Shown here: positions 37,802 to 51,153 of the stretch, in pieces
Position numbering within the stretch: the first letter of the stretch is position 1
How the letters are laid out: each line of letters begins with the position of its first letter
Position numbers and translations under genes: made by a program
Assembly (NCBI GenBank): GCA_013215295.1
Contig: JABSOZ010000002.1
Location: 558,001 to 622,000, forward strand
Source of the DNA: Colwellia sp.
GTDB lineage: Bacteria; Pseudomonadota; Gammaproteobacteria; Enterobacterales; Alteromonadaceae
Reading direction: 5' to 3'
DNA length: 64,000 nucleotides
The notes under the pieces: model-generated
Told to the model about the DNA's origin: nothing
Database searches by the model: none
Seen by the model: only the letters and a program-made list of their open reading frames with translations

Positions 37802-39685
37802 ATGACTATAAACCTTGCCGACTACCCTTTATTGGCCAATATAAACTCTCCTGACGATCTACGTATGTTAGATCAAAAACAGTTAACTCAAGCCAGTCAA
37901 GAACTGCGTAGTTACTTATTGAGTTCAGTAAGCAAAAGTAGTGGGCATTTTGCTTCAGGTCTAGGCACAATCGAATTAACTGTGGCATTGCATTATGTTT
38001 ATAAAACGCCATTCGATCACCTTATTTGGGATGTTGGACATCAAGCTTACCCGCATAAAATATTAACGGGTCGACGCGATCAGCTACATACTATCCGTCA
38101 AAAAGATGGTTTACACCCTTTCCCATGGCGTGAAGAAAGTGAGTATGACGTATTAAGCGTTGGGCATTCAAGTACGTCAATTTCAGCAGCATTAGGCATG
38201 GCTGTTGCTGCAGAGAAAGAAGAAAGAAATCGCAAGGTTGTTGCAGTTATTGGTGACGGTGCGATGACTGCAGGCATGGCTTTTGAAGCATTAAATCATG
38301 CAGGCGATATTAAAAGTGACATGTTAGTTATTTTAAATGACAACGAAATGTCAATTTCAGAAAATGTTGGCGCATTAAATAATCACTTCGCGAAACTGTT
38401 ATCTGGAAGCTTCTATACCGGAATTCGTGAAGGTAGTAAGCGTATACTTAAAAATATTCCTCCTATTAAAGAATTAGCAAGTCGTGCTGAAGAACATTTA
38501 AAAGGCATGGTTGTACCCAGTACCTTTTTTGAAGAGTTAGGTTTTAACTATATTGGCCCTATTGATGGTCACGATGTTAATGGTTTAGTTGATACCATTA
38601 CCAATATGCGTAATTTAAAAGGGCCTCAAATCCTTCATATTGCCACTAAAAAAGGCAAAGGCTATCACGCAGCAGAACAAGACCCTATAAAGTATCATGC
38701 GGTACCTAAATTTGACCCAACACAAACGAGCTTGCCAAAAAGCAAACCCAGCATACCGACCTATTCCAAAATATTTGGTGATTGGTTATGTAAAACAGCA
38801 GAAAAAAATAGCTCACTTGTCGCAATTACACCAGCAATGCGTGAAGGCTCTGGCATGGTTGAATTTAGTCAACGTTTCCCTAAGCAGTATTATGATGTTG
38901 CGATTGCCGAGCAACACGCAGTAACTTTCGCTGCAGGTCTAGCTATTGGTGGTAATAAACCTGTTGTTGCCATTTATTCGAGCTTTTTACAGCGCGGGTA
39001 CGACCAATTAATTCATGATGTTGCTATTCAAAACTTACCGGTGTTATTCGCTATCGATCGCGCTGGTATTGTCGGTGCAGACGGGCCTACACATCAAGGT
39101 TCATTTGATTTAAGCTTTATGCGTTGTGTGCCAAACATGGTTATTATGGCCCCCTCGGATGAACGAGAATGTCAGCTAATGCTCACCACAGGCTTTCAAC
39201 ATAACGGTCCAGCGGCTGTTCGTTATCCTAGAGGTTCAGGCAATGGTGCTCATTCACCTGATATAGATGAAACGATTGAAATAGGTAAAGCAAAGACGAT
39301 TTTCCAAGCTAACGAAAACAGTTCAGAGCCTAGTGTTGCAATTTTAAATTTTGGTAGCACACTTGATGAAGCAAAAATTGCGGCGAGACAACTCAACACT
39401 ACATTGGTTGATATGCGTTTTGTTAAACCGCTTGATTTATCACTCATCGACGACTTAGTTAAAAGTCATGATGTTATCGTTACCGTTGAAGACAATGCAA
39501 TTGCAGGTGGTGCAGGCTCTGGAGTGAATGAATATATTCTTAGTCAGGGTGTCGCGATTAAAATATTGAATATTGGCTTACCTGATAGTTTTATCAAACA
39601 TGGTACCCAACAAGAAATTCATCAAGAACTAGGATTAGACAGTAAAGGGATTATTGATAAAATCAATGCCTTTATTGAATTATAG
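37802..39685 (+). CDS. dxs: 1-deoxy-D-xylulose-5-phosphate synthase
   Basis: 627 residues, full length. Motifs are [35 protein letters not shown], the ThDP-binding [18 protein letters not shown] with NDNEMSIS, and [21 protein letters not shown]. It makes DXP from pyruvate and glyceraldehyde-3-phosphate, the entry to the MEP isoprenoid pathway. Its last 33 codons are repeated at 45872-45973 with the ending TKR instead of IEL. Confidence 0.97.
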
Positions 39686-39738
39686 AGATTATAAGTAATC
39701 TCTATAATAGTTACTAACAATAACCATTGTTAGTAACT
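39684..39738 (+). terminator. Two consecutive hairpins after dxs
   Basis: Hairpin 1 is AGAGATTA / TAATCTCT (39684-39691/39696-39703) and includes part of the stop codon. Hairpin 2 is AGTTACTAACAA / TTGTTAGTAACT (39709-39720/39727-39738), perfect 12-bp arms. T-runs are weak. Confidence 0.5.
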
Positions 39739-39815: not shown

Positions 39816-40775
39816 TTAGTGTCTGAAATTAATACCCAAAAAATATTGTACACTTTGATAACTAATGTCAGGTAAAGTTTCTGAAGTACCATCATCAAAT
39901 GTATTCTTAATTTGCTTACGTGATTTGTATAAACCTCGCATACCTAAATCAACAGATAATTTATTTGTTAGCATCCAACGTACTCCACCATAAAGTTGTG
40001 CACCAATACCATCACCTAAACCACCTGAATGTTCAGAATCAGGCCTAAAAGTATTTAATACACGGTAATATAAGGGGAATGATATTTCAGCGCCAGCATA
40101 CCATTGAAATTTATCTTTACTGAAGAAATGTGTATCATAGAGGTATCCCAATGAAAGATCCAAGTTATCGCTAGATTCACTTATATCACCAGCAACAACG
40201 TCAAATCCTGACTCATCTCTAAAATTGTCAATTTCTTCTTGGCTGAAGCCTGCTTCTCTTGCTATTTCTTCACCAGCATCCTTCAGGATTATATTTAATT
40301 TCTCTCCATCTTGTGCGTATTCGAATGCTGAACGTGTAAAATCAAAAGTATTCAAAGTGAAACCAACTAATAATTGTCCACCAGAATGAATATTATAAGC
40401 TGACTTAATTTCAACCTCAGTAGTACGTATTTTAAATTTATCATTTTGTATATGACCAATACCACTAAGATGCCATTCTTCATCTGCGAAGTTTTGAGAT
40501 ATTGTCGATGTGCCATTAATATAGACGCCCCACTCATCATTAATAACAGTATATGATTGAGAGCGTTGTATAACATTATCCACTGAAGTTTTTGTATGTA
40601 GATTGTGGCCAGCAGATATACCCTGTAAAAAATCGGAAATATCCTCTTTATAAGTAATACTTTCTGAGCCTATTGAAAAAAAGCTAAAGTTCAATAAATT
40701 AGGGTTTACATTGGCGAACGATGAAAAGCTTATTGCTGACAATACAATTAATAGTGGTATAGATAGTGTTTTCAT
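39816..40775 (-). CDS. Hypothetical secreted or outer-membrane beta-barrel protein
   Basis: 319 residues. The signal peptide is cleaved near SFA-NV (residue ~22). The mature protein is rich in alternating aromatic/polar strands and closes with YQSVQYFLGINFRH, a typical terminal barrel strand. An internal acidic segment (~165-215) interrupts the strand pattern. I do not recognise the family. It is opposite in strand to dxs and to the lipoprotein gene and has no copy beside the second lipoprotein, so it was either inserted after the duplication or lost from one copy. Confidence 0.6.
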   Translation of the reverse strand: MKTLSIPLLIVLSAISFSSFANVNPNLLNFSFFSIGSESITYKEDISDFLQGISAGHNLHTKTSVDNVIQRSQSYTVINDEWGVYINGTSTISQNFADEEWHLSGIGHIQNDKFKIRTTEVEIKSAYNIHSGGQLLVGFTLNTFDFTRSAFEYAQDGEKLNIILKDAGEEIAREAGFSQEEIDNFRDESGFDVVAGDISESSDNLDLSLGYLYDTHFFSKDKFQWYAGAEISFPLYYRVLNTFRPDSEHSGGLGDGIGAQLYGGVRWMLTNKLSVDLGMRGLYKSRKQIKNTFDDGTSETLPDISYQSVQYFLGINFRH

Positions 40776-41008
40776 TCATGACTTCCTTTCGTGAGCGACA
40801 AGTTTCATTGTTACTGTATCAGGTGAAAATATCAACTATGGCTAACAAAAAACCTTGAATTTACCAATAAAAGAGATTAATTAGTTTTTGATATAAGGCA
40901 ACAATAAAGCTAAATAATGCTTAAAATTTGAACTTTAACCTTTCACTAATTTTCTTTGTATGCTTAAATTACTGGCGCATTTTATTATATTATAACAAGG
41001 ATTTTTTA

Positions 41009-44000
41009 ATGATATTTCGTAAAAGCATTGTACCTCTTGCTCTCATTTCAGCCCTCGCCGCTTGTGGTGGATCCGATGATCCAAAACCTGTCGTAGAACC
41101 ACCAGTTCCGGTCCCTGTTAAAACAATTATTACGGGTAAAGCATTAAAAGGCACGTTCGCTAATGCTGCAATCACCGTATATAAATTTGTTGACGGTTTG
41201 CCTGTCGCACTTACTGCGGATGAATTAGACACTGCAGATGTTATTACTGGCGCTGACGGTAGTTACAGCGTAACAGTTGTAGATTACAACGGCCCTATTA
41301 AAGTTGAGCTCTCAGTTGGTGAAAATACCACCATGCTTTGTGACGCTCCTGACGGCTGTGGCAGTATAGCATTTGGTGAAATAATTGAACTTTCCACTGT
41401 AGACCCTGACTTTGTTTTATCTGCTGTGTCAACTGTTTCTGCCGATAGCGGCGATACGGTTACCGTTAATGTTTCAGGTTTAACACATTTAGCAACCGGA
41501 CTCATTGAAGCTGATGCAGGTGGTGTCTCCGCTGAAACTATCCAAACACAATCATCAGTAATTGCCAACGCCTTTAATATTATGGGCAGTATCACCGAAT
41601 TAGAGCCAACAAGCATAGATGACGCTACAGCAGTTGCAAACGAAGATAATGATAATGAATTACGTTATGGCTTAATCAACGCTGGTATTATGGCGGCGCT
41701 ATTTTCAGGAGAAGAAGATGCGAGCGCAGTATTATCAGAAAAACTTGCTGAAGCTATAGAAGACTTAGTGGAACACGACGGCGCATTCCTCGTGAATCAA
41801 GATAATGAAGCTGAAGGGTTTGAACTTTCTTTAGTTGAAGTGCTTGACGGTGCTGGCGAAGCAGCCAATGCTGCTGCAGAAGCAATTGCCGCAGATCCTG
41901 ACCTTGCAGGTAACACTGAAATTATAGAATCGCTTGAACAACACGAAACAAATTTAGAGAATCAATCTGAATACGAGGAAGTTAACGAAGGCGATGATGG
42001 CCGTAGTGAGCCTACCGTTGAAGTACCAACCGAAGGTGATGCTGTTGCTAAAGCCAAAGCTATGGTTGCAGATGTTCGTTTATTTAGTCACTTATTTGAA
42101 GTAGGGACAGATTCAAATACAGCCATAACCACTGAAGGTGATACGTACCTCGAACTTATTGATAGTGCTGGTGTAATGATTGAAGCAGAAGCGGCTAGCT
42201 TTTTATTACTTGCTGACGTAACTGATGCCCTATCGACAATCAGTATGATGTATGAAGCAGGTACCATTGCCGAAGGAACTTTCCCCATAGACACTTACTT
42301 AAGTATTGAAGGTGCCGTTGGTTCTATAACCCTTGATGAAGAAACCGCAGATGGTGGTATATTATTTACAATTAGCGCCACTTCAGGAAGTGAAAGAATA
42401 GCATTAAATGCATCAGTAGTTTTTGCAGAAGACGGTTTAAGCATTATGTTAAATCTTGATGGCTCAATTGAATCAGCAGGTGCAATGTTATCTTTAACGG
42501 AAGGTAGCTTTGCCAAAGTCTATCTTGATAGTGCAATAAGCCGAGCAGCGATTGAAGATGATAGTTATGACGGTGAAGTGACTTCGGGTGAGCTTTCTCT
42601 TGAAGTGATACTTGAACAAAAAGCAAGTGACACAGTTACCAACCCTGTTGCTTTTACTGGCATGATTAACACCAAACTACTACCGGTTACTGTTCACACA
42701 TTAGACGAAAGAGAAGACTATGTTAGAGATGAAAATGGTCAAGTGGTGTATGAGAATGATGTAGCACTACGTAGAACTATTTACATTAAAAGTGTAGAGA
42801 CTCAAATATTACCTGAAATGTTATCGTTAAGTGGTGGCTTTAGCTCATTAGAAGGAAACTTAATCAAAGCAACCTTAACCGTTAATATTCAAGACTTAGA
42901 AAGTTATGAAGCACCTGAATTTGAATACATTGGTGCTTCTGTTGAAGATGTTGCCACGGTTACTGTTTCAGAAGACAAAAACACCGTCGTTATTGATACC
43001 CATGACATTATGTTGAAAAGCAGTACAGAGACGCGTGTATTTACCCCAGGAGACGTTGCAGGACATTGGAGTATGACATCTACCACTGTGTTTGATAATA
43101 GTGAAACACCAGGTTTTTCCTCTACTTTTGAACGAGAAACTACTACAACCGACGGAATGACTGGATATATTTTTACTGTTGTCCAATTAGATTCTTATGC
43201 TTATTTAGAGCATGTAGTTCCTACAGATTCTGACGGTGATGGTGTAGTTGATTATTATACTTACAATGGTTGGTTCGGAAGTTATTTGGATGAGCAAGGA
43301 AACTTGATTGATTGGAATGATAATATTGTTGAGTTGAACGATGAAAATTCTTGGGGAACAGCGGTTTATGATGACCTTGATGAATTATTTCAAATCCATG
43401 CACTGCAAGGAGATGATATTTCAAATGGCGCAGAAGAATTTGCTTACATGGCTCAATGGATATATAGAGGGTATCAAAGAAGCGTTTTGGCATCTGGCGT
43501 AGAAGCAGAAATTCTCTTTAGTGAAAATGAAGATAACTTTGCAGCCATTGCTGAAGGCAATACAGCATCACTTTCTGCTAACGTTACTTCAGGTGCTAAA
43601 ATTGAAGATGCGCTTTCAGTAACCATAAGTGCAGATGGTAATGAAATATCAACCATTGTTAATAATATCCCTATTAGCACAATAACGTTCACTAAAGAGT
43701 CTGCGGGTAACTTTAGTTATGTGCGCCATTGGACTGATGATCTGGATGAAAATTATCGTCAGACGATAACCGCAAAAACGGTAGAAACAACACTAGATGC
43801 CGATGAAGTACTGATTAACTGGGAGCATTCATTTGAAAATGGAGAGTGGTTTTCTTCAAGTCAAGTCAAAATAACACCTATCGATGATGACAATGACGGT
43901 ATTGCTGATAGATTTATGCAATTAGTGCTTTGGGGTGATCACTTTACTGATGAAGGTGTATTAGTTGATTATGATGGTAATGTACTAAGTTATGACAATG

Positions 44001-44629
44001 CTTACTCCGACTTTGAATTTATCAACTATGAAGATGTTAACTGGACTAATAACTGGAATATACCTTTCAATCCGCTGACGGTTAATAGCGCTTTAACTAT
44101 TTATAAAACCCATCAAGCCGTATATTACCTAGATGGTATAGGTCTATTAGCGCTTAAAGATAATGACGAAGAATATGCAGCGCTAACTATGGGAAGCACA
44201 ACGTTTCTCGATTTATACAACATTTACCCTGATAGTAATGAATCGCTAGAAAACGAAGATGTATTCTTAGATGCTAGTGCAGCCCTAACATTAGAAGCAA
44301 TTTTAGGTGAATACCAAGTGAAGTTAATGCTTTCAGGTAATCGCACGGCGTTAAATGATGGTGAATTTGATCTTGAAATGAGCTACAAACTTCCTGACGA
44401 TGAAAATATGCGCAAGTTTATTGTTCATATGAAAACTGACGAAGCAGATAGGTTCAGTGTCAATAATAGTGAAGGCGTCTTATTGATAATCAATGGCAGC
44501 GATGACTCATCAACTGATGTTATTGGTAGTATAGTTGTCGGTTCTTCAGCGACTAAAGTTGCAGATATTGAAGATCGAGACGGTGTTATTTGGATCGTAT
44601 ATAGCGATGAAACAACCGAAACCTTGTAA
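41009..44629 (+). CDS. Large acidic lipoprotein of a duplicated module, copy 1
   Basis: 1206 residues from the ATG at 41009, with AAGGA upstream. The signal peptide ends in LAAC (Cys19), and the next residues GGS carry no inner-membrane retention Asp, so an outer-membrane location is likely. A Pro/Val-rich spacer leads to a carboxypeptidase-regulatory-like domain (KALKGTFANAAITVYKF...ADGSYSV). A long acidic helical and strand region follows. Two repeats of ~220 residues start near Gly642 and Gly862; each holds a calcium-type Asp motif (DSDGDGVVD near 740; DDDNDGIAD near 959). The last 128 residues are almost identical to copy 2. Family not recognised. A barrel protein follows after a terminator. 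Confidence 0.8.
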   Translation: MIFRKSIVPLALISALAACGGSDDPKPVVEPPVPVPVKTIITGKALKGTFANAAITVYKFVDGLPVALTADELDTADVITGADGSYSVTVVDYNGPIKVELSVGENTTMLCDAPDGCGSIAFGEIIELSTVDPDFVLSAVSTVSADSGDTVTVNVSGLTHLATGLIEADAGGVSAETIQTQSSVIANAFNIMGSITELEPTSIDDATAVANEDNDNELRYGLINAGIMAALFSGEEDASAVLSEKLAEAIEDLVEHDGAFLVNQDNEAEGFELSLVEVLDGAGEAANAAAEAIAADPDLAGNTEIIESLEQHETNLENQSEYEEVNEGDDGRSEPTVEVPTEGDAVAKAKAMVADVRLFSHLFEVGTDSNTAITTEGDTYLELIDSAGVMIEAEAASFLLLADVTDALSTISMMYEAGTIAEGTFPIDTYLSIEGAVGSITLDEETADGGILFTISATSGSERIALNASVVFAEDGLSIMLNLDGSIESAGAMLSLTEGSFAKVYLDSAISRAAIEDDSYDGEVTSGELSLEVILEQKASDTVTNPVAFTGMINTKLLPVTVHTLDEREDYVRDENGQVVYENDVALRRTIYIKSVETQILPEMLSLSGGFSSLEGNLIKATLTVNIQDLESYEAPEFEYIGASVEDVATVTVSEDKNTVVIDTHDIMLKSSTETRVFTPGDVAGHWSMTSTTVFDNSETPGFSSTFERETTTTDGMTGYIFTVVQLDSYAYLEHVVPTDSDGDGVVDYYTYNGWFGSYLDEQGNLIDWNDNIVELNDENSWGTAVYDDLDELFQIHALQGDDISNGAEEFAYMAQWIYRGYQRSVLASGVEAEILFSENEDNFAAIAEGNTASLSANVTSGAKIEDALSVTISADGNEISTIVNNIPISTITFTKESAGNFSYVRHWTDDLDENYRQTITAKTVETTLDADEVLINWEHSFENGEWFSSSQVKITPIDDDNDGIADRFMQLVLWGDHFTDEGVLVDYDGNVLSYDNAYSDFEFINYEDVNWTNNWNIPFNPLTVNSALTIYKTHQAVYYLDGIGLLALKDNDEEYAALTMGSTTFLDLYNIYPDSNESLENEDVFLDASAALTLEAILGEYQVKLMLSGNRTALNDGEFDLEMSYKLPDDENMRKFIVHMKTDEADRFSVNNSEGVLLIINGSDDSSTDVIGSIVVGSSATKVADIEDRDGVIWIVYSDETTETL

Positions 44630-44662
44630 CTTTTCTCATTAGCTAAACAAAGAGTAAAGATA

Positions 44663-44696
44663 AAATACCAGTCATGTGTGTGACTGGTATTTTTTT
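44663..44696 (+). terminator. Terminator between lipoprotein 1 and barrel 1
   Basis: AATACCAGTCA / TGACTGGTATT stem followed by seven T residues. The same element occurs in copy 2, so the partner gene is expressed separately or by read-through. Confidence 0.85.
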
Positions 44697-44718
44697 ACTT
44701 ATGCATTCAGTTATCTTA

Positions 44719-44746
44719 TTAAACTTCAACTTCATTCTCATACAAT
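44719..44746 (+). promoter_or_regulatory. Possible promoter of barrel gene 1
   Basis: TTAAAC (44719-44724), a 16-base spacer and TACAAT (44741-44746) resemble a sigma-70 promoter just after the terminator. The layout is conserved in copy 2. Confidence 0.4.
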
Positions 44747-44784
44747 AAATACAATGGAAGCACTTCTCAAACTTAAGGAAATTA

Positions 44785-45864
44785 ATGAACGTTAATTATA
44801 TATTTTTATTACTCTTGGTCTTTTTATCTACATTCTCTCATGCTTCAGCAAAGGTTGAGTTTTTTACTTTAAGTCAATCATTTAGTAATATTTTGCCGGT
44901 AAAACAGTTGATTGAAGACGATTGGCAGCAGTCTCCAGGAAATAAAGCCAGTGACGGTTTTACCCAAAATGAAGTGGGTATTAGAAGTTACTGGCAAAAC
45001 TTTTCATTCAGTCTTGCACATCGCTACGATTACTTTGTTTTTTCTAATCCTGACACCGCAAAAGCATTTTATTTAGACAGAAGTGATTTGGCACTAGATA
45101 CGCAAGAGAAATATAATATTGACCTTAAGTTATTCCATCAACGTAGCAATGGTGTACGTGTTGGATATAAATTTGAATTTAAAAATTTTAATAGCGAAAT
45201 ACGCATTGGTTACTGGAATTTACATGCCACCCGAGAGTCAAATTTAACGGGGACACTCACCAGTGATCTTCAAGGAAACATATCGGCGGTTGCTGAATTA
45301 GACGAATTTTACTCTGCTGATAACTTTTTACATCGCCGAAATACCAATGATTGGAAGACAAGCGGTTCGGGTATTACCGTTGATATTCATTTAGATTGGC
45401 AACCAACAAATAACATCAGTATTTACGCTGACTTGAAAGATATCTATTCTAACTTCTCCCTCGATGAATCTGGTTTTAGTGAAGGAAAAATAGATACTGA
45501 AGGTACTTTTATCAACAGTGTAGGTGGCACAGCCTATTTACCTGTTTATCGTGGCAGGGAAACAACAGACAAACATCAGTTTGATTTACCTGTGCAATTA
45601 AGTTTTGTTGGTCTTTTTCATCATACGAAACAATTGAGCTACTTAGCTCGGTATAAACGCCAAGGCGAACAAAATTTTTATTATTTGGGCGCTGAAATAG
45701 CACACGAAAACTCTTCAACACGGTTGTCATTTGATCTTAAAAATAAGGCTCCTGAGATTCAATATAAACGAGATTGGTTCTCATTGTTTATTTCAATTGA
45801 CAATATAAAAATTGAACAAACGATGTTATTTAACTTAGGTTTCAATATCCATTATAGTTTCTAA
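44785..45864 (+). CDS. Predicted outer-membrane barrel protein of the duplicated module, copy 1
   Basis: 359 residues. A signal peptide (to about Ala22, SHASA-K) is followed by many alternating amphipathic strands (GIRSYWQNFSFSLAHRYDYF; LFHQRSNGVRVGYKFEF). The C-terminus FNLGFNIHYSF ends in Phe, the signature of BAM-inserted barrels. The length would suit 12-16 strands. I do not recognise a family. AAGGA precedes the ATG. It follows the large lipoprotein gene and is duplicated with it, so the two products probably act together at the outer membrane (inference). Confidence 0.65.
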   Translation: MNVNYIFLLLLVFLSTFSHASAKVEFFTLSQSFSNILPVKQLIEDDWQQSPGNKASDGFTQNEVGIRSYWQNFSFSLAHRYDYFVFSNPDTAKAFYLDRSDLALDTQEKYNIDLKLFHQRSNGVRVGYKFEFKNFNSEIRIGYWNLHATRESNLTGTLTSDLQGNISAVAELDEFYSADNFLHRRNTNDWKTSGSGITVDIHLDWQPTNNISIYADLKDIYSNFSLDESGFSEGKIDTEGTFINSVGGTAYLPVYRGRETTDKHQFDLPVQLSFVGLFHHTKQLSYLARYKRQGEQNFYYLGAEIAHENSSTRLSFDLKNKAPEIQYKRDWFSLFISIDNIKIEQTMLFNLGFNIHYSF

Positions 45865-45871
45865 AGAATAT

Positions 45872-45973
45872 GATAGTTTTATCAAACATGGTACTCAACA
45901 AGAAATTCATCAAGAACTTGGTTTAGACAGTAAAGGGATTATTGATAAAATCAATGCCTTTACTAAACGCTAA
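45872..45973 (+). pseudogene. Duplicated 3' end of dxs
   Basis: 34 codons in frame ([20 protein letters not shown], then [13 protein letters not shown], stop) match the end of dxs at 39584-39685, apart from the last residues. It begins eight bases after the barrel-1 stop and has no start codon. It marks the left edge of the second module copy. Confidence 0.92.
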
Positions 45974-45991
45974 ACGTTATAAATATGACCT

Positions 45992-46032
45992 GATTAAGTG
46001 ACTAAAAATACAGTTTTATTAGTCACTTAATC
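45992..46032. terminator. Perfect 14-bp hairpin after the dxs remnant
   Basis: GATTAAGTGACTAA (45992-46005) pairs exactly with TTAGTCACTTAATC (46019-46032). No T-run follows, so it may be a terminator of barrel 1 or of an ancestral dxs copy. Confidence 0.5.
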
Positions 46033-46195
46033 TAATGTTTCATTTCATTGTATTCCTCTTTTTTTTCCGTTACATATTTGTTACTAACTTGTTGTTCGTA
46101 TGTGACTTAATTATTATATTTTTCTTTAAAAAATATTATTTATCTGCTTAAATGCGCCAGTGATATTTTTCTCAATTATGAATAAGGATTATTTA

Positions 46196-49100
46196 ATGAA
46201 ATTTACCAAAAGTATTATTTCAATTGCTCTCATTTCAGCGCTAGCCGCATGTGGTGGGTCCTCCAGTAGCAAACCCCCTATTGTTGAGCCAGAACCAGCT
46301 CCAGAGCCAGTCAAAACAGTTATTCAAGGTAGAGCAATAAAAGGCACAATTGCGAATGCTGTTGTTACCGTTTATAAATACGTTGATGGCCAAGCCGTTA
46401 AATTTACAAGCGATGAATTAGAAACGATTGAAATCATGACAGAACTTGATGGCAGTTATGCCATTAGCATATTAGATTACATAGGGCCTGTTAAAATAGA
46501 ATTATCTGTCGATGAAAATACCACTATGATGTGTGATGCTCCGGCAGGTTGTGGCGAAGTGACCTATGGTGAGCCCATTGCACTTGCAACGGTTGACCCA
46601 ACCTTAGTCTTATCAGCCATCTCAACGGTGGGGAGTGATAACGGTGAAGCTCCTAGTCTTATGCTTGACCATCACACTATCGTGAATTTGAATGGTGCTG
46701 CATTAGCAAACATTAATGTTTCAGCATTAACCCATCTAGCTGCTGCATTGATAGAAGCTGATGAGAGCGGTGTAAGTGCCGAATCAATACAAACACAATC
46801 GTCACTCATAGCAAATGCTTTTAATATTATGGGCAGCTTAACTCAGCTTGAGCCAACTGCCATTGAAGATGCAGGAAGAGTTGCAGGCGAAGACAATGCC
46901 AATGAATTACGTTACGGTCTTATCAATGCAGGCATAATGGCTGCTTTGTTTTCAGGCGAACAAAATGCAAACGGTATTTTATCAAGTAAATTAGCCGAAG
47001 TGGTTGAAGATTTAATCGCACATGATGGTGCATTACTGGTAAACCAAGATGAAGCAGACGAAGGATTTGAGCTTTCTTTGGTTGAAGTACTTGATGGCGC
47101 AGGCGAAGCTGCGGCTGCAGTTGCTGAAGCAATTGCAGCTGACTCAGAATTAGCCAGCCAAGATAACAGTGAAATACTCGGTGAACTTGAACAACAAGAA
47201 ACCAATTTAGAGAATCAATCTGAATACGAAGAAGCTAACGAAGGCGAAGATGGCCGTAGTGAACTTGAAGTTGAAGTACCTACAGAAGGTGGTGCTATTG
47301 CTAAAGCGAAAGCTATGGTTGACGACGTTCGCTTATTCAGTCACTTATTTGAAGTAGGCACAGATTCAAATACAGGCTTAGCCAACGAAGGTGATAAATA
47401 CATCACACTTATTAACAGTGCTGGTGCAATGATTGAGGCAGAAGCGGCAAGCTTTTTATTACTTGCAGATGTCACTGATGCTTTGTCTGAAATAAGCATG
47501 ATGTTTGAGGCTGGTACCATTGCAGAGGGAACTTTTCCTATCGATTCTTTCTTAAGTATCGAAGGTGCGGTTGGCTCTATAACGCTTGACACAGAAACTG
47601 ATGATGGCGGCATGCTATTTACAATTAGCGCTAATTCAGCTTCAGAAAAAGTAGCATTAAATGCTGCAGTTGTATTTGCAGAGGACGGCTTAAGTATTAA
47701 TTTAAATCTTGATGGTTCAATTGAATCAGCAGGTGCAATGTTATCTCTAACTGAAGGCAGCTTTGCTAAAGTAAACCTTGATAGTGCTATCAGTCGAGCA
47801 ACACTTGAAGATGATAGTTTTGACGGTGAAGTGACTTCTGGTGAATTATCTTTGGAAGTAGTTTTAGAACAAAAAGCAACTGACTCTGTTACAAACCCTG
47901 TTGCGTTTACGGGAGTGCTTAAAACTAAGTTAATGCCTGTAACGGTTAATACTCTATATGAAATAACTGATTTTACTACAAAAGACGGTACATACATTAG
48001 AGATGAAGATGGCAATATCATCATGCAATTTAATCGATATGGAAAAAGCACTGATACAAAAATTCTTCCTGAAATGCTCACGTTAAGTGGTGGTTTTAGC
48101 TCTTTATCTGGCGATTTGATTAAAGCAACTTTGACCGTAAATATTCAAGATTTAGAAAACTATGAAGCTCCGGAGTTTAAAAATATTGGTGCACCGATTA
48201 AAGATGCATTAACCGTTGTAATCTCTGAAGATAAAAATACGGTAAATATTTCAACAGCAGATATTATTACCAATGGCTTCACTCAAACGTATACTTTTAC
48301 ACCAGGTGACACGGCTGATGAATGGTCATCAACAAATCGTATAGTTCATAACGAGAACAGTCCTGGAAATGATTCTTTACATTGGGATGCAGATTTAACA
48401 AAATCACTAAGCCTATCGAATGGTATGACAAGTTATACTTATACAACGGTTACGTCCGCATTCGGTGCTTATATAGAAACTGTTGTTCCTACCGATGAAG
48501 ATAATGATGGTAATATTGATTTATATACTTATAGTTTTTGGTCTGGCATTGATATAAATGATAATGGTGAATTAGTTGATTATTATGGTCAGATCAACCC
48601 GCTTGATAGTACGAATGCTTTTATACAAACATATGAAGATCTCGATGAATTACTTGAGGATAGAAGAATACACTCAAACACAGTGGACGATGCTGCTAAA
48701 GCCTATGCATGGGAAGTTGAACATTGGGCAAGAGAATACGAATTCGAACTAACCTCTGGTACAAAAGCTTCTATATTTCTTCATGATAACGAAGAAGAGG
48801 TTGCCGAAATTTTTAATGGTACTTCAACATCAGTCAATGCTTATATTACTTCTGACGCCCCACTTGAAGATGCTTTATCCATTGAAGTGAGTGCCGATTC
48901 AAATACAATTACAACTACCTTCGGTAATATGGTAAGTACAACAACCTACGCTGGAACAAGTGCAGCTAACTTTACCTACTCAGCACAAACTATCTACAAC
49001 GGTGACTATATCTGGACAGATACTCGAGTAGTAAGTACCTCTGAAACCAATTTCACTTCTGATGAAGTACTGGTTAGCAGAAACCGAATGAATAATGAAG

Positions 49101-49918
49101 GCTGGACTTATTACGAGCGTATGGTAATAACACCTATTGATGAAGATCAAAATGGTCAAGAAGATACATTTATTGTGCGACGCATGGGAAGTGATCATAT
49201 TAATGATAATGGCGATTTAGTTGATGAAGAAGGAACTGTTCTTACCTTTGAAAATAATGGCTGGGAGGCTGGTCGATTCACTTCTTACGATGATATTGAA
49301 TGGTCTGAACTACCGTTTAAATATATGCTCCCTCTTAACCCGTTTACCACTGAAAATGCATTAATGGCATTCACAGCTAATGTTAATAATCGTATGGATA
49401 ACCTATTTTACAGTTATGCTGATGAGGTAGGTGATTTAGAAAGCGAAATTAGCAGTGATGACTTGTCGACACTTACCGCCGATAGCACCAGTATGTTTGA
49501 TGCTTATGTTACACATCCTGACTCAACAAAGTCACTAGAAAACGAAGACGTATTTTTAGATGCCAGCGCAGCCCTATCATTAGAAGCAATACTTGGTGAC
49601 TACCAAGTGAAGTTAATGTTGTCGGGTAATCGTACGGCGTTGAATGATGGCGAATTTGATCTTGAAATGAGCTACAAACTTCCTGACGATGAAAATATGC
49701 GTAAGTTTATTGCTCGTATGAAAACCGACGAAGCAGGTAGTTTCAGTGTCCATAATAGTGAAGGTGTCTTACTGATAATCAATGACAGCGATGACTCAAC
49801 AACTGATGTTATTGGTAGTATAGTTGTAGGTTCTTCAGCGACTAAAGTTGCAGATATTGAAGATCGAGACGGTGTTATTTGGATTGTTTATAGCGATGAA
49901 ACAACCGAAACCTTGTAA
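46196..49918 (+). CDS. Large acidic lipoprotein of a duplicated module, copy 2
   Basis: 1240 residues from the ATG at 46196, with AAGGA upstream. The plan is the same as copy 1: lipobox LAAC (Cys19), Ser/Pro/Glu linker, regulatory-like domain (RAIKGTIANAVVTVYKYVDG), acidic middle, two repeats with Asp motifs (DEDNDGNID; DEDQNGQED) and the shared 128-residue end with nine substitutions by eye. The N-terminal half is strongly conserved with copy 1 but carries an extra ~20 residues (HHTIVNLNGAALANI) before the ALTHLA block. The repeat region is much more diverged. A 246-codon antisense frame inside it is a shadow. Confidence 0.8.
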   Translation: MKFTKSIISIALISALAACGGSSSSKPPIVEPEPAPEPVKTVIQGRAIKGTIANAVVTVYKYVDGQAVKFTSDELETIEIMTELDGSYAISILDYIGPVKIELSVDENTTMMCDAPAGCGEVTYGEPIALATVDPTLVLSAISTVGSDNGEAPSLMLDHHTIVNLNGAALANINVSALTHLAAALIEADESGVSAESIQTQSSLIANAFNIMGSLTQLEPTAIEDAGRVAGEDNANELRYGLINAGIMAALFSGEQNANGILSSKLAEVVEDLIAHDGALLVNQDEADEGFELSLVEVLDGAGEAAAAVAEAIAADSELASQDNSEILGELEQQETNLENQSEYEEANEGEDGRSELEVEVPTEGGAIAKAKAMVDDVRLFSHLFEVGTDSNTGLANEGDKYITLINSAGAMIEAEAASFLLLADVTDALSEISMMFEAGTIAEGTFPIDSFLSIEGAVGSITLDTETDDGGMLFTISANSASEKVALNAAVVFAEDGLSINLNLDGSIESAGAMLSLTEGSFAKVNLDSAISRATLEDDSFDGEVTSGELSLEVVLEQKATDSVTNPVAFTGVLKTKLMPVTVNTLYEITDFTTKDGTYIRDEDGNIIMQFNRYGKSTDTKILPEMLTLSGGFSSLSGDLIKATLTVNIQDLENYEAPEFKNIGAPIKDALTVVISEDKNTVNISTADIITNGFTQTYTFTPGDTADEWSSTNRIVHNENSPGNDSLHWDADLTKSLSLSNGMTSYTYTTVTSAFGAYIETVVPTDEDNDGNIDLYTYSFWSGIDINDNGELVDYYGQINPLDSTNAFIQTYEDLDELLEDRRIHSNTVDDAAKAYAWEVEHWAREYEFELTSGTKASIFLHDNEEEVAEIFNGTSTSVNAYITSDAPLEDALSIEVSADSNTITTTFGNMVSTTTYAGTSAANFTYSAQTIYNGDYIWTDTRVVSTSETNFTSDEVLVSRNRMNNEGWTYYERMVITPIDEDQNGQEDTFIVRRMGSDHINDNGDLVDEEGTVLTFENNGWEAGRFTSYDDIEWSELPFKYMLPLNPFTTENALMAFTANVNNRMDNLFYSYADEVGDLESEISSDDLSTLTADSTSMFDAYVTHPDSTKSLENEDVFLDASAALSLEAILGDYQVKLMLSGNRTALNDGEFDLEMSYKLPDDENMRKFIARMKTDEAGSFSVHNSEGVLLIINDSDDSTTDVIGSIVVGSSATKVADIEDRDGVIWIVYSDETTETL

Positions 49919-49950
49919 CTTCTCTCATTAGCTAAACAAAGAGTAAAGAT

Positions 49951-49985
49951 AAAATACCAGTCATATGTGTGACTGGTATTTTTTT
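49951..49985 (+). terminator. Terminator between lipoprotein 2 and barrel 2
   Basis: Same stem as at 44663-44696 (AATACCAGTCA / TGACTGGTATT) with a one-base loop difference, then T residues. Confidence 0.85.
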
Positions 49986-50007
49986 ACTTATACATTCAGT
50001 TATCTTA

Positions 50008-50035
50008 TTAAACTTCAACTTTATTCTCATACAAT
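50008..50035 (+). promoter_or_regulatory. Possible promoter of barrel gene 2
   Basis: TTAAAC (50008-50013), 16-base spacer, TACAAT (50030-50035), conserved with copy 1. Confidence 0.4.
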
Positions 50036-50073
50036 AAATACAATGGAAGCACTTTTAAAACCTAAGGAAATTA

Positions 50074-51153
50074 ATGAACGTTAATTATATATTTTTATTA
50101 CTCTTGGTCTTTTTATCTACATTCTCTCATGCTTCAGCAAAGGTTAAATTTTTTACTTTAAGTCAATCATTTAGCAATATTTTGCCGGTAAAACAGTTGA
50201 TTGAAGACGATTGGCAACAATCTCCAGGAAATGAAGCCAGTGACGGTTTCACCCAAAATGAAGTGGGTATTAGAAGTTACTGGCAAAACTTTTCATTCAG
50301 TCTTTCACATCGCTACGATTACTTTGTTTACTCTAATCCTGACACTGCAAAAGCATTTTATTTAGACAGAAGTGATTTGGCACTAGATACGCAAGAGAAA
50401 TATAATATTGACCTTAAGTTATTCCATCAACGTAGCAATGGTATTCGTGTTGGATATAAATTTGAATTTAAAAATTTTAATAGCGAAATACGCATTGGCT
50501 ATTGGAATTTACATGCCTCCAGAGAGTCAAATTTAACAGGGACACTCACCAGTGATCTTCAAGGAAACATATCGGCGGTTGCTGAATTAGACGAATTTTA
50601 TTCTGCTGATAACTTTTTACACCGCCGAAATACCGATGATTGGGATACGGGAGGTTCAGGTATTACTCTTGATGTTCATTTGAATTGGCAACCAACAGAT
50701 AACATCGATATTTTCGCTGATTTAAAAGATATTTATTCTAACTTTTCACTCGACGATTCGGGTTTTAGTGAAGGAAAAATAGATACTGAAGGGACATTTA
50801 TTAACAGTGTCGGAGGCGTTGCTTATTTACCCGTATATCGTGGAAGAGAAACAACGAAAAAACATAAATTTAAGTTACCCGAAAATTTAAGTCTCGTTGG
50901 CCTATATCATTACACTAAACAATTAAGTTACCTAGCCCGATATAAACGCCAAGGTGAACAAAATTTCTATTATGTAGGTGTTGAAATAGCACACGAAAAG
51001 TCATCAACACAACTTTCGTTTGATATTGAAAATAAAGCGCCTGAAATTCGATATAAGCGGGATTGGCTTTCACTCGTCTTATCAATTGACGATATAAAGA
51101 TTGAACAAGCTATGTTGCTAAATGTAGGCTTTAATATTCATTACCGATTCTAG
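50074..51153 (+). CDS. Predicted outer-membrane barrel protein of the duplicated module, copy 2
   Basis: 359 residues, the same length as copy 1. The first ~190 residues, including the signal peptide, are almost identical. The last third differs at many positions (VGLYHYTKQLSYLARY against VGLFHHTKQLSYLARY; end LNVGFNIHYRF). The C-terminal Phe and strand pattern are kept. It follows lipoprotein 2 with the same 155-base spacer. Function unknown; a dedicated partner or surface-display factor for the lipoprotein is a hypothesis only. Confidence 0.65.
   Translation: MNVNYIFLLLLVFLSTFSHASAKVKFFTLSQSFSNILPVKQLIEDDWQQSPGNEASDGFTQNEVGIRSYWQNFSFSLSHRYDYFVYSNPDTAKAFYLDRSDLALDTQEKYNIDLKLFHQRSNGIRVGYKFEFKNFNSEIRIGYWNLHASRESNLTGTLTSDLQGNISAVAELDEFYSADNFLHRRNTDDWDTGGSGITLDVHLNWQPTDNIDIFADLKDIYSNFSLDDSGFSEGKIDTEGTFINSVGGVAYLPVYRGRETTKKHKFKLPENLSLVGLYHYTKQLSYLARYKRQGEQNFYYVGVEIAHEKSSTQLSFDIENKAPEIRYKRDWLSLVLSIDDIKIEQAMLLNVGFNIHYRF

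Follow-up and report, generated by a model that had tools for sequence, protein, structure and literature searches.

What might a bacterium gain from two adjacent copies of a gene pair that encodes a very large lipoprotein and a predicted outer-membrane protein? This question is raised by a stretch of 64,000 nucleotides (nt) of Colwellia sp. (contig JABSOZ010000002.1, positions 558,001 to 622,000), called here the window. Its plus strand shows, twice in tandem between dxs and ribBA, the same order: an open reading frame (ORF) for the lipoprotein, then a hairpin, then the ORF of the barrel. We lean, with some caution, towards the reading that the pair is a dedicated two-partner surface-display module, in which the barrel would recognise the C-terminal domain of the lipoprotein and place this variable lipoprotein on the cell surface. 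Throughout, G numbers are sampled genomes (G000 is the genome of the window) and L numbers are the loci or contigs examined; protein lengths are in amino acids (aa). The features are the following:

39583..39697, plus strand: 3' end of dxs, source of the junction relic (direct repeat D4, 90% identical to 45871-45985)
41009..44629, plus strand: lipoprotein copy A, 1206 aa, ATG start (ORF, start, lipobox, composition; without Pfam or NCBIfam match)
42926..44233, plus strand: variable middle part of copy A, made of two divergent repeats (~200 aa), each containing one DxDxDGxxD loop (hhalign of the halves)
44246..44626, plus strand: C-terminal domain of copy A, closing with the shared tail (alignments, tail count)
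44294..45293, plus strand: tract of near-identity between copies A and B, with the C-terminal domain, the hairpin and the first ~170 barrel codons (sliding identity)
44662..44693, plus strand: terminator-like hairpin between lipoprotein A and barrel A (hairpin scan)
44785..45864, plus strand: barrel A, 359 aa, signal-peptide-like start, C-terminal Phe (ORF, alternation peaks, homologues)
45871..45985, plus strand: relic of the dxs 3' end, 115 nt, at the duplication junction (direct repeat, 90% identical to 39583-39697)
46196..49918, plus strand: lipoprotein copy B, 1240 aa, ATG start (ORF, start, lipobox, composition)
49535..49915, plus strand: C-terminal domain of copy B, tail as in copy A (alignments)
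49951..49982, plus strand: terminator-like hairpin between lipoprotein B and barrel B (hairpin scan)
50074..51153, plus strand: barrel B, 359 aa (ORF; 89% identical to barrel A)

The original prediction, made from the letters of the window, had described two adjacent copies of a two-gene unit with conserved order, terminator and spacing. All four genes were found, each copy has its hairpin, and the gap between lipoprotein and barrel is 155 nt in copy A and copy B alike. Because the 115-nt copy of the dxs 3' end precedes copy B, we infer a tandem duplication of one block, from inside dxs through the barrel gene. A single lipoprotein-barrel copy adjoins dxs in G001, G004 and G012, as well as in contigs L070 (Cognaticolwellia aestuarii) and L071.

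Regarding the lipoproteins, their most likely starts are ATG 41009 and ATG 46196, each preceded by an AAGGA ribosome-binding site; the starts proposed before, at 40928 (TTG) and 46160 (GTG), lie too far upstream. Both copies carry a lipobox followed by Gly (...AAC-GGS, that is C-G-G-S, without Asp at +2). The mature proteins have an isoelectric point of 4.05, with 222 (A) and 219 (B) Asp and Glu residues against 47 and 56 Lys and Arg, and each holds two DxDx[DN]GxxD loops (43226-43252 and 43883-43909 in copy A, 48494-48520 and 49139-49165 in copy B). The acidic lipoprotein of about 1,200 residues with calcium-type Asp motifs was thus rightly described. Among the 45 lipoproteins of the family a lipobox was found by pattern in 41, one of these with Asp at +2, and L095 was added by eye. 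The middle of the lipoprotein is an internal repeat, since its halves match each other (hhalign probability 99.4, E 6e-22), and each repeat unit holds one of the loops. It is also the variable part: in ten aligned lipoproteins the mean identity was 30-33% at residues 701-1000 versus 49-62% at residues 1-700, and at residues 709-958 10 of 12 pairwise identities were 29-41%.

The barrels A and B are 89% identical, and both have 359 residues, a signal-peptide-like start and a terminal Phe, as had been noticed earlier. The alternation score averaged over 38 barrels gave 14 amphipathic peaks, versus 5.4 +/- 1.9 (highest value 12) in 300 shuffles. Slam barrel domains reach 10 peaks by this score, so the peak number is a rough strand count only. 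The last residue is F, W or Y in 30 of the 38. By its amphipathic strands and its C-terminal aromatic residue the 359-aa protein is therefore a predicted outer-membrane beta-barrel.

The statement that neither protein belongs to a recognised family held, as no Pfam or NCBIfam family above cut-off was found for the window lipoproteins or the window barrels. Profile searches against the PDB gave nothing significant for the lipoprotein (best E 0.24), its C-terminal domain (best E 0.79) or the barrel (best E 0.1), and with single sequences of the window proteins one search gave one match at E 0.51 and the other none. Ig/cadherin-type domains were found by Pfam in single divergent lipoproteins. MelC1, Shiga B-subunit, BRINP and most other weak library matches were sub-threshold and were taken as chance.

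The evidence that the two proteins belong together comes from other genomes. Relatives of the 359-aa barrel were found in 15 of 98 related genomes with a single query and in 16 of 98 with a profile, and in 17 of 369 genomes of a class sample, each count including the genome of the window. The neighbourhood was examined by eye at every place. Directly upstream of the barrel, 35 of the 39 loci have a large lipoprotein-type gene; this holds for every one of the 18 full-length places in the relatives, for 13 of the 17 places in the class sample and for all 4 further named contigs. A 43-residue match in G001 and a fifth named contig (L072, which is G008 again) were left out of this count. The proposal that the two proteins work together is well supported by this adjacency. 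The complete upstream partners range from 487 to 1332 aa, and 7 of 15 partners in the relatives have no phmmer match to the window lipoproteins at E 1e-3, so the two genes stay together even where the partner is no longer recognisably similar. A common porin that occurs without a partner is not supported by adjacency in 35 of 39 loci; the question whether the barrel is a known, widespread porin was answered likewise, as a Pfam search of 30 distinct barrels matched no porin.

In a phylum sample of 398 genomes there were five positives: the genome of the window, the already known G073, and three weak, partial matches inside frames of 750-800 residues; in this sample and in the class sample scoring was limited to the five best candidates of each genome, so that misses are possible. 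Regarding carriage on plasmids, the L094 barrel had no match in 72,556 plasmid records. The 43-residue match in G001 was considered as a second barrel copy and rejected, since this DNA contains repeats of the end of the barrel instead: at L066 5030-5205, minus strand, the last barrel codons are repeated downstream of an intact barrel.

The lipoproteins share a common ending, which consists of a strand with Y or F, a D-G-like turn and E-[ST]-[LFI] at the C-terminus or at most 2 residues from it. The tail alignment was made with 33 of 39 references, those of G002, G005 and G025 (six sequences) being left out; for the profile a further near-duplicate was dropped, which left 32 rows. A permissive pattern of this tail was found in 37 of 45 lipoproteins: in 30 upstream partners of 35, and in 7 of the 10 other lipoproteins. 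Four of these ten others (two in G293 and two in G033) had been found with the C-terminal profile itself. The count is descriptive, as both the pattern and the profile had been fitted to these lipoproteins, the profile without the six non-conforming or variant ones. A chance origin of the tail is rejected, because none of 552 other stop-to-stop frames (150 codons or longer) from the same loci and the window has it. The eight misses comprise a longer loop (L073), a variant ending (L054b, L057b, L161b), a similar strand followed by an extension (L053, L054) and two proteins without the tail (L057, L161). This putative signal on the lipoproteins is new over the original prediction.

A profile of the last 110 residues was matched in 13 of 98 relatives, all of which but G033 (12 genomes) have the barrel. 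In the class sample it was matched in 16 of 369 genomes: 13 strong matches, all with the barrel, and 3 weak ones (E above 2e-4), none with it. As the profile contains rows from these genomes, the informative part is that strong matches without the barrel are absent here. The barrel was present and the profile unmatched in G002, G005, G025 and G027, partly because their lipoproteins were outside the profile; in these four genomes the genes form a triad, in which a lipoprotein of 624-666 aa with the tail or a variant of it follows the barrel. One barrel can also go with several lipoproteins. G329 and G336 have two tail-bearing lipoproteins upstream of a single barrel, and G293 has two more on other contigs (three in all), one without a barrel in the stretch examined and the other at a contig end. 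A weak C-terminal-domain match (E 2.3e-4) was also seen in L164 (G203:C1:262000-268000), which is part of an open frame of 18,106 residues.

Between the two genes, 33 of 35 pairs (the misses are G178 and G135) have a terminator-like hairpin, with a T tract, behind the stop codon of the lipoprotein, versus 17 of 63 gaps between co-directional neighbouring frames, uncurated, of the same loci. The scan covered at least 130 nt past the lipoprotein stop, and Fisher's test gave 3e-11, with related pairs treated as independent. The original prediction had rightly given the terminator as conserved between the two copies, and had not included its recurrence inside the pairs of most lineages. The stem sequences are unrelated between lineages. 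We read the hairpin as selected for unequal expression of lipoprotein and barrel. A separate promoter for the barrel would be an alternative; no plus-strand promoter-like site was found in either 155-nt gap of the window, and sites of this kind were not commoner there than in shuffles (36 versus 39.0 +/- 7.3).

The two copies have not diverged evenly. Per 100 nt, A and B are 42-62% identical from 42940 to 44193, 90-98% identical at 44294-45293 and then 77-87%. Their synonymous divergence (dS) is 0.36 in the C-terminal segment, 0.48 over the whole barrel and 0.76-2.9 in the other lipoprotein segments, values above about 1 being rough. We read 44294..45293 as a probable gene-conversion tract. 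Between the orthologues of G001 and G004 the identity is 84-97% at residues 1-589 and 1073-1197, 59-76% at 590-833 and 40-41% at 834-1072, where copy B is 55-70% identical to G004 and 34-38% to G001. These identity patterns suggest that the middle has been swapped or diversifies rapidly, in contrast to the C-terminal domain and the barrel front, which stay alike. This variable, repeated middle and the tract of near-identity are additions to what was first noticed.

Regarding the neighbouring genes, a 319-aa predicted barrel gene (39816-40775, minus strand) sits between dxs and copy A, without a second copy. It was not seen at the dxs loci of G001, G004, G012, L070 and L071, and the protein has matches in 5 of 98 genomes, its own genome counted. 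As its homologue in G054 (L060) lies convergent and directly beside a lipoprotein-barrel pair, the 319-aa protein may be a third associate of the pair. It gave a FadL-type match (PF03349) below threshold (E 0.023), and a relationship with the 359-aa barrel was not supported (hhalign probability 6.7). In G001 and G004 a gene for a protein of 663-667 aa with a signal-peptide-like start lies between the barrel and ribBA (L066 2860-4863 and L067 2310-4301, minus strand); it is not found in the window.

We can now propose how the module would work. The lipoprotein would leave the cytoplasm through Sec, receive its lipid anchor and be carried by Lol to the outer membrane, where its C-terminal domain would be the address that the barrel recognises. 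The barrel would carry the lipoprotein to the cell exterior, or at the least keep it there, so that the variable, acidic and probably calcium-binding middle would be exposed. The hairpin would keep the barrel below the level of its client, which suits a handler that is used repeatedly better than a 1:1 receptor, and in the tandem copies the middle would have diverged while the C-terminal domain and the barrel front were kept alike.

Several observations weigh against this proposal. Three barrels, in G174, G300 and G402 (L102, L104, L105; one genus), are unpaired and follow a gene taken by eye for mpl; the fourth unpaired place is a 79-residue barrel fragment in G149. The expectation that the pair would be found in other genomes was borne out, unpaired barrels being limited to one genus and one fragment. 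On the side of the lipoproteins, the upstream partner in L101 lacks the lipobox Cys and two further partners end at contig ends; G033, which is 81% complete, has two tail-bearing lipoproteins and no barrel that we could find; and the large lipoprotein upstream of the barrel is without the standard tail in G002, G005, G025 and G027. The pairs are related, so the counts of pairing, tail and hairpin are not independent, and the fitting of the tail pattern lowers the weight of its count further. The correlation of distances with the barrel was uninformative as a sign of co-evolution and did not single out the C-terminal domain (r 0.953 versus 0.951 and 0.969 for two other blocks). Finally, surface display of the lipoprotein is plausible, its exit from the periplasm being presumed, and the fold and function of both proteins are those that we infer from sequence.

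Other arrangements of a lipoprotein with a barrel have to be weighed as well. SusD-SusC and TbpB-TbpA are receptor-type lipoprotein-barrel arrangements, and the pair could also serve uptake, the lipoprotein being a ligand-capturing co-receptor, the barrel a channel and the C-terminal domain a docking face only. The strict pairing and gene order agree with this, and the variable acidic middle with its calcium-type loops could bind a ligand. However, the barrels have no Pfam match to plug or TonB-receptor domains, and both the hairpin in 33 of 35 pairs and the barrels that go with two or more lipoproteins argue against a fixed 1:1 complex; we regard an uptake receptor as unlikely. Much less probable still is a pair that faces the periplasm, as LptE does with LptD, with the lipoprotein staying inside and helping to fold or plug the barrel. 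Lipoprotein-barrel pairing by itself gives no topology and would allow this, but about 1200 aa with a hypervariable middle are unusual for an assembly factor, and the hairpin points to more lipoprotein than barrel.

In a narrower version of the display module the barrel would act as anchor or shuttle only: another machine would export the lipoprotein and the barrel would hold its C-terminal domain, as PorP/SprF proteins do with their clients in the type IX secretion system (T9SS). Passages in PMC9143113 and PMC12618676 describe a comparable gene order, 14-stranded barrel, C-terminal recognition domain and sharing of one barrel by several clients. The scarcity of endogenous SprF and the undetected Fjoh_3951, reported in a part of PMC12618676, would fit the hairpin, and the model of DUF5723, matched in a Bacteroides control, is also matched above cut-off by the L094 barrel. 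Nevertheless, an additional translocon would be required, and T9SS is described in the abstract of PMC7463736 as specific to Bacteroidetes; furthermore, PF11751 was matched neither in G000 nor in 30 distinct barrels. We give this form about the same small chance as the uptake receptor. Export and mere anchoring by the barrel both fit the present data. The boldest form of the display module, a T9SS- and Slam-independent system of Gammaproteobacteria in which the ~360-aa barrel reads the tail and itself exports lipoproteins with swappable middles for recognition (of kin, phage or prey), the terminator setting the levels, is a possibility that we rate as rather doubtful.

The surfacing of lipoproteins in Gram-negative bacteria has been explained in few systems so far. 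The pair described here is compact and recurrent, has no named family, and combines a putative C-terminal address with a presumed device for unequal expression, in marine bacteria that are not pathogens. Should the barrel be enough for export, it would be a minimal translocon and a tool for display; should it only anchor, it would be the counterpart of SprF for lipoproteins, outside Bacteroidota.

We found no description of the lipoprotein-barrel pair in the open-access literature, and compared it with known systems. Regarding the fold, the sections of PMC9143113 that we cite give PorV and PorP-like proteins as 14-stranded FadL-family barrels, a number equal to the 14 alternation peaks of the 359-aa barrels; no match to FadL/OMPP1 (PF03349) was found among the window barrels and the 30 distinct barrels. 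As the L094 barrel passes the cut-off of DUF5723 (PF18990; 36.6 bits versus 26.8), the barrel family may be a remote cousin of this uncharacterised group. In one set of ten barrels one was above the cut-off (L094) and three below, in another set of 21 two matched (best E 4.5e-5), and the window barrels had no match; no open-access paper naming DUF5723 was found.

Slam also carries an N-terminal repeat domain, for which 359 aa leave little room. Nevertheless, Slam is similar in having an outer-membrane barrel gene near surface lipoproteins with a C-terminal export domain, and according to a passage in PMC12282271 it is a C-terminal eight-stranded beta domain of the cargo lipoproteins that directs export. 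For the lipoproteins studied here Pfam gave no match to a domain of this type, and the best PDB profile match of the C-terminal domain was at E 0.79. Membership in Slam or the type XI secretion system (PF04575) was rejected: the SlipAM barrel domain was matched by 0 of 30 distinct barrels in Pfam and had no match in G000, and hhalign of the barrel with SlipAM gave probabilities of 1.3 (five strong domains) and 1.4 (three weak), versus 97.8 in the positive control. Membership in PorP/SprF was likewise rejected at sequence level, as none of the 30 distinct barrels and nothing in G000 matched PF11751, a weak test in which 0 of 14 control genomes matched. Other proteins, outside the barrel family, were just over the cut-off of PF11751 in 2 of 20 relatives (L182 in G059 and L183 in G006).

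In T9SS, the clients with a type B C-terminal domain (type B CTD) are, in passages of PMC9143113 and PMC12618676, large surface proteins with conserved motifs in the last ~100 residues; a gene for an SprF-like 14-strand barrel commonly lies directly downstream of such a client, and three orphan clients share one barrel. Endogenous SprF was barely visible and Fjoh_3951 was not detected, that is, little shuttle is made from its own locus (part of PMC12618676). The likeness is that here too the barrel lies directly downstream of the tail-bearing gene (35 of 39 loci, with the tail in 30 of 35), whereas the clients here are lipoproteins and PF11751 is unmatched. By the tests made the pair is a member of neither system, and by its predicted anatomy it resembles both: the type B CTD-SprF arrangement of T9SS would be the closest working model, and Slam with its cargo the other.

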